Virus record (IMG/VR): IMGVR_UViG_3300006108_000015 | Location: 1 to 64,000 of that record | Length of the DNA stretch: 64,000 nt | Reading direction: 5' to 3' (one strand) | DNA from: a virus | Shown here: piece after piece, positions 39,991 through 40,062 of the stretch | Layout of the letters: each line of letters starts with the position of its first letter | Position numbering within the stretch: position 1 is the first letter of the stretch | The notes under the pieces: generated by a model | What the model saw: only the letters and a program-made list of their open reading frames with translations | What the model was told of the DNA's origin: nothing | The model's database searches: none | Position numbers and translations under genes: made by a program

Positions 39991-40062
39991 TTACTTAGTT
40001 GCGATATACATTGTGACTTCAAATCCAAAACGCAAATCGGTTGCTTGAGGTGTTGTCCACAT
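39991..40062 (-). CDS. pqqA: PqqA-like PQQ precursor peptide
   Basis: 23 codons from ATG 40060-40062 to TAA. AAGGAG lies seven bases upstream of this ATG (and almost touching an alternative ATG two codons earlier). The peptide starts MWTTP, then [12 protein letters not shown]. Glu15 and Tyr19, spaced E-x-x-x-Y, are at the same positions as the cross-linked Glu/Tyr of Klebsiella PqqA, and M1-W2, P5, D9-L10-R11, G13 and V16-T17 also agree with the family. PqqA is the ribosomal substrate from which PQQ, the cofactor of methanol and glucose dehydrogenases, is built by host PqqB-E. No other pqq gene is in the window. Its length is canonical for the family. Confidence 0.88.
   Translation of the reverse strand: [23 protein letters not shown]

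Follow-up and report, generated by a model that had tools for sequence, protein, structure and literature searches.

The stretch of viral DNA analysed here (the window: 64,000 nt, positions 1 to 64,000 of the 69,692-base IMG/VR virus fragment IMGVR_UViG_3300006108_000015) contains a genuine phage gene for PqqA, the peptide precursor of the cofactor pyrroloquinoline quinone (PQQ), and not a chance frame. We consider it likely (probability about 0.7) that this gene is functional and of host type, and that its product feeds the PQQ enzymes of the host, by which PQQ-dependent methanol oxidation would be sustained during infection.

A 23-Codon pqqA Gene in the Window

A preliminary description, made from the letters alone, had picked out a 23-codon frame with an AAGGAG motif and with Glu15 and Tyr19 in its product, and had read it as PqqA. 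We found the frame at that place, on the minus strand (none had been given), with both residues present (Table 1), and the identification stands: the gene exceeds the cut-offs of two curated models, PF08042 (39.8 bits, E 6e-11 in a six-frame search of the record; 42 bits as a protein; cut-off 21.1) and TIGR02107, the NCBIfam equivalog model (37.2 bits; cut-off 20). It is the single PF08042 match in the whole record, and the same model found no match in 14 control genomes. The peptide has the E-x-x-x-Y spacing of PqqA (positions 15 and 19), as well as its length of about 23 residues and its ribosomal start signals, an ATG preceded by AAGGAG. None of the PHROGs families matched it.

We also built a profile from 83 distinct bacterial PqqA peptides and no others. 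With this host-only profile, the window gene scores 60.4 bits. The runner-up among the frames of the window reaches 5.9 bits, and the top frame over 100 simulated windows (first-order Markov, i.e., dinucleotide, model of the window) 13.9 bits; the match is, thus, well above random short frames.

A promoter search upstream of pqqA gave no convincing candidate, the sigma-70-like sites scoring no better than shuffles. None of the eight exact T4 late motifs (TATAAATA) in the window lies directly upstream of the gene. All eight copies of this T4 late promoter core are on the coding strand, in a number not above chance.

Table 1. Location of pqqA, its ribosome-binding site and surrounding features in the window.
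Feature	Position	Strand	Remarks
pqqA	39991..40062	minus (40062..39991)	23 codons, ATG start, Glu15 and Tyr19 intact
Shine-Dalgarno AAGGAG	40070..40075	minus (40075..40070)	7 nt before the pqqA ATG
tRNA-Trp	40182..40259	minus	upstream of pqqA
RNase H-like protein gene	39487..39966	minus	next downstream of pqqA; PF04308, phrog_11311
tRNA-Gly(gcc)	39366..39439	minus	downstream of the RNase H-like gene
TATAAATA sites	1626, 19950, 26830, 42462, 43431, 45724, 59938, 62586	minus	

Genomic Setting

Judged by its predicted proteins, the window comes from a T4-like phage, of which it covers a part. Its family B DNA polymerase is ~51% identical to cyanophage gp43 over the full length, and it specifies UvsX, a DnaB-like helicase, a gp44-type clamp loader, UvsW, a scaffold protein and a prohead protease; portal-, tail-tube-, sheath- and terminase-like frames were recognised by eye in the remaining 5.7 kb of the record. 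The N-terminal part of the terminase-like frame (L399:4415-5644, i.e., record 68415-69644, minus) resembles, also by eye, the end of an intein (..VSHNC).

The gene sits in a tRNA-rich cargo region (11 tRNAs over 39366-44487), flanked by tRNA-Trp upstream and an RNase H-like gene downstream. An additional weak tRNA (44502-44580, minus; Rfam 32.9 bits) was missed by ARAGORN, and a Cupin_2 protein with an apparent N-terminal signal peptide (40558-41079, minus) adjoins a tail-collar domain protein (40276-40545). The window encodes, moreover, a peptide deformylase and a cytidylyltransferase-like protein; a PQQ_2 domain was not found in its 69.7 kb record, which is itself a fragment.

T4-like Relatives Reached through the Neighbour Gene

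Contig L242 carries the same pqqA as the window beside an identical RNase H-like protein. In three more distant relatives (L244, L245 and L246), a divergent pqqA, the product of which starts with MWTKPTAQD[T/K], lies upstream of the same RNase H-like gene, so that this gene is downstream of pqqA in all four contigs. A hairpin followed by T residues, read by eye, comes after the pqqA stop in L244 and L245. Two records of ~161-163 kb (L248 and L260) have pqqA at another location.

A PqqA match is missing in 44 of the 50 records reached via the neighbour gene, many of them fragments. Since most of these relatives are without it, pqqA would appear to be dispensable in some lineages or hosts, and in T4-like relatives it looks like optional cargo. 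In a 163 kb T4-like contig (G470), a permuted tmRNA of the betaproteobacterial type (L400:2947-3329; RF01850, 158 bits; tag ANDERFALAA) is located ~0.8 kb from pqqA, which points to a betaproteobacterial host.

Occurrence in Phage Isolates

We screened 50,697 phage records by tblastn with four PqqA queries: the window type, a Klebsiella type, a divergent viral type and the commonest Methylophilaceae-like type. All four retrieved the same 12 records, namely P19250A, MEP301, Venkman, four Melnitz genomes, MEP401, MEP402, the Manatee Spring uncultured podovirus and two records named “Acinetobacter phage”. A Methylobacterium-type query (like the Klebsiella type, an approximate sequence) yielded no additional phage records, and no Klebsiella, Pseudomonas or other phages were matched among the 50,697.

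The two “Acinetobacter phage” MD-2021a matches were rejected as phage pqqA: the record inspected (L378; CAKLQF020000010.1) has ppk beside a bacterial pqqABCDE operon and resembles a bacterial chromosome. With these set aside, pqqA in the 50,697 records is limited to phages of Methylophilales/Methylophilaceae and the one uncultured podovirus. It is present in every methylotroph phage isolate checked, and the five OM43 isolates that PMC10580990 names are all among them. The carriers are spread over different groups: their records place them in Kyanoviridae and Zobellviridae, and Venkman, MEP301 and Melnitz have been described as three distinct viral groups (PMC10580990).

In none of the records inspected is the gene labelled as PqqA; its place either carries no annotation or is taken up by a hypothetical protein, which in Melnitz-1 and the Manatee Spring podovirus is on the opposite strand. 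The hypothetical proteins that overlap pqqA in this manner in Melnitz-1 (L376:2961-3056) and ctXG6705 (L379:2067-2195) are probably miscalled.

Conservation and Origin of Viral pqqA

The environmental phage contigs with pqqA number well over a hundred. A degenerate DNA pattern run against IMG/VR returned PqqA peptides in 119 of 120 cases, among the matches listed; its counts for residues 13-19 were dropped as biased, and a second scan left residues 15-19 free. Among the matches listed in this second scan, the frames of which come largely from the contigs of the first, Glu15 and Tyr19 are kept in 120 out of 120, the length is exactly 23 codons in all, and within residues 15-19 variation occurs at 16-18 only (V/I, T/C, M/L). 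The frame and its two cross-linked residues, thus, persist in relatives of the window gene.

A Shine-Dalgarno-like core occurs at most 18 nt upstream in 135 of 136 viral pqqA genes among the matches listed. For 121 distinct viral pqqA sequences among the matches listed, pN/pS is 0.37 over the columns free of pattern constraint, and for six sequences (the window gene and those reached via its neighbour) it is 0.35 over the frame; by these ratios, viral pqqA is under purifying selection. By their flanking genes, 131 loci among the matches listed form 27 neighbourhoods, three of them large, when at least two proteins within 4 kb per side have to be shared, and 6 when one shared protein suffices.

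One 23-residue form occurs, among the matches listed, in 21 viral sequences and also at 4 bacterial loci, the latter in genomes of 1.3 Mb; in nucleotide sequence, no viral pqqA was identical to any of the bacterial genes. The bacterial peptide closest to the window PqqA over its full length, among those sampled, is 87% identical (20/23); at its locus (L226), pqqA is followed by PqqB-, PqqC- and PqqE-like frames. The genomes tested as candidate hosts contain frames of the PQQ-dehydrogenase family, and association with the methylophage records makes a methylotrophic host of the window phage likely.

Companion Genes

PqqE, by which we tested for a full PQQ pathway on the phage, was above cut-off in none of 50 pqqA-bearing viral records other than the window's own; a single weak match, below threshold, came from G026. 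A PQQ_2 domain was sought in another set of 50 pqqA-bearing records that overlaps largely with the first; it is present in one (L043, 72 kb), and it was absent from the pqqA-bearing relatives of 161 and 163 kb. With no PqqE above cut-off and PQQ_2 in one record of these sets, pqqA alone is the usual state.

The exception is a methanol/ethanol-type PQQ dehydrogenase of 624 residues (L240:1084-2958 in the contig of L043; TIGR03075, 608 bits), encoded ~6 kb from pqqA and beside a repeat-rich, curlin-like frame. It carries a WDYD motif, which we take to be typical of lanthanide enzymes.

Proposed Role

The peptide would be made from phage pqqA during infection and converted into PQQ by PqqE/PqqD and the later pathway enzymes of the host; the cofactor would then go to host PQQ-dependent dehydrogenases, such as the XoxF-type methanol dehydrogenase of methylotrophic betaproteobacteria, so that methanol oxidation could go on after the failure of host transcription, presumably to the benefit of the phage. 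Each molecule of PQQ consumes one PqqA peptide, whereas PqqB-E act as catalysts or can be used again; for this reason, pqqA alone may suffice on the phage.

Methylophilaceae have 3-12 pqqA copies and typically one set of the remaining genes (PMC4109929), and for Methylovorus MP688 a passage citing Ge et al. names the availability of PqqA as rate-determining (PMC11317620). From these copy numbers and this rate limitation, we infer that, once a phage has shut off host transcription, PqqA would be the first factor to limit PQQ, a shortage that a 72-base phage gene could repair.

Supply of precursor to the host is favoured by the matches to curated models, the invariant Glu15 and Tyr19, purifying selection, the host-type peptide, the host specificity of the carriers and the frames of the PQQ-dehydrogenase family in candidate hosts, as well as by the co-occurrence of pqqA and a methanol/ethanol-type PQQ dehydrogenase in one viral contig (L043/L240) and likewise in a Baikal phage. 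Against it, enough dehydrogenase may already be loaded with PQQ for a short infection, and the 44 neighbour-gene relatives (of 50, many of them fragments) without pqqA have to be accounted for. Furthermore, pqqA is stated to be non-essential for PQQ in Methylobacterium extorquens AM1, in a report, cited in PMC11317620, that leaves the orphan copies aside.

Extra PqqA or PQQ might instead serve lanthanide acquisition or some other role of PQQ (e.g., as an excreted lanthanide-binding compound) and not the loading of methanol dehydrogenase. The orphan pqqA copies of M. extorquens respond to neodymium supply and a role in lanthanide uptake has been suggested (PMC11317620), but the idea is speculative even for the host, and no lanthanide-related gene was identified beside phage pqqA in the partly annotated neighbourhood; we regard it as unlikely.

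It is quite unlikely that pqqA is a mere passenger, a host gene repeatedly acquired in a tRNA-rich hypervariable region without real benefit. Such a gene would be small, lie among tRNAs and be patchy in T4-like relatives, as pqqA is; yet purifying selection, the upstream Shine-Dalgarno core (135/136) and the exact length (120/120) among the matches listed, and the carriage of pqqA by unrelated methylophage groups, all five named OM43 isolates included, speak against this.

Host pathways are often inhibited by phages, and a short substrate analogue could compete with the host peptide. From a phage peptide that binds PqqD/PqqE, thereby blocking host PQQ synthesis or redirecting metabolism, one would, however, expect a loss of the residues that are cross-linked; these are kept in 120 of 120 frames among the matches listed, at positions that the scan left unconstrained, and a bacterial PqqA has exact counterparts among the phage peptides. 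We, therefore, hold such a decoy to be very doubtful.

That the frame is due to chance or to mis-binned bacterial DNA is hardly credible: it is very short, and a similar match in “Acinetobacter phage” MD-2021a sits in an apparent bacterial operon, but the window is T4-like throughout, L242 is a second contig with the same gene and neighbour, cultured phages also carry pqqA, and the profile score is far above the simulated windows.

Should pqqA belong to the standard equipment of methylotroph phages, the supply of PQQ would likely be a bottleneck of infection in an abundant aquatic guild of C1 oxidisers, viruses would be linked to the turnover of methanol and perhaps of lanthanides, and an accessory gene would give a substrate instead of an enzyme. 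This role is directly testable, because pqqA-bearing phage isolates and their hosts exist in culture, among them Venkman and Melnitz with OM43 strain H5P1 and MEP401 and MEP402 with FZCC0133. PQQ supplied in the medium, as in PMC9004378, could hide an effect of the gene.

Comparison with Known Systems

The preliminary description had known of no phage pqqA. This claim to novelty fails, because PqqA had already been published for VP_266 of Lake Baikal, a T4-like phage of Methylophilaceae that also encodes methanol dehydrogenase and a peptide deformylase and for which support of methanol oxidation by the phage was proposed (Coutinho et al. 2020; PMC7678222). A 2026 reservoir study also lists viral pqqA (PMC13188868). 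Neither a phage pqqA nor the synthesis of PQQ comes up in the open-access methylophage papers searched, so the generality of the gene across cultured methylophages appears to be unreported in this open-access literature. We lean towards the view that pqqA is a near-universal accessory gene of Methylophilales phages, present in several unrelated groups and normally as the sole PQQ gene, by which this guild would supply a consumable peptide. Gene callers would have missed it because it has only 23 codons; phage genomes hide metabolic genes in frames shorter than ~30 codons.

According to its published description, VP_266 is similar to the window phage in being T4-like, assigned to Methylophilaceae and endowed with PqqA, with a representative that has a peptide deformylase, as the window does. 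A glycerol-3-phosphate cytidylyltransferase is listed for the VP_139/VP_266 set as well, to be compared with the cytidylyltransferase-like gene of the window. In contrast, VP_266 encodes methanol dehydrogenase, whereas the 69.7 kb fragment lacks a PQQ_2 domain.

With bacterial PqqA (PF08042/TIGR02107), the window peptide, which scores above both cut-offs, shares the length and the E-x-x-x-Y core. Unlike pqqA of chromosomal pqqABCDE operons, the phage gene stands alone, with no pqqB-E nearby. It is comparable in this respect with the orphan pqqA copies that Methylophilaceae and other methylotrophs carry away from pqqBCDE; those are chromosomal, however, and full-length identity between the window peptide and the sampled bacterial ones does not exceed 87%.

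T4-like phages carry auxiliary metabolic genes, e.g., the photosynthesis genes of cyanophages. The T4-like surroundings, the bacterial-type PqqA and the copies in cultured phages make pqqA a probable member of this class, as a host-type gene in a genuine phage genome, and like those genes it is a host metabolic gene maintained in phage cargo by purifying selection. It differs in that it encodes a consumable substrate and not an enzyme.
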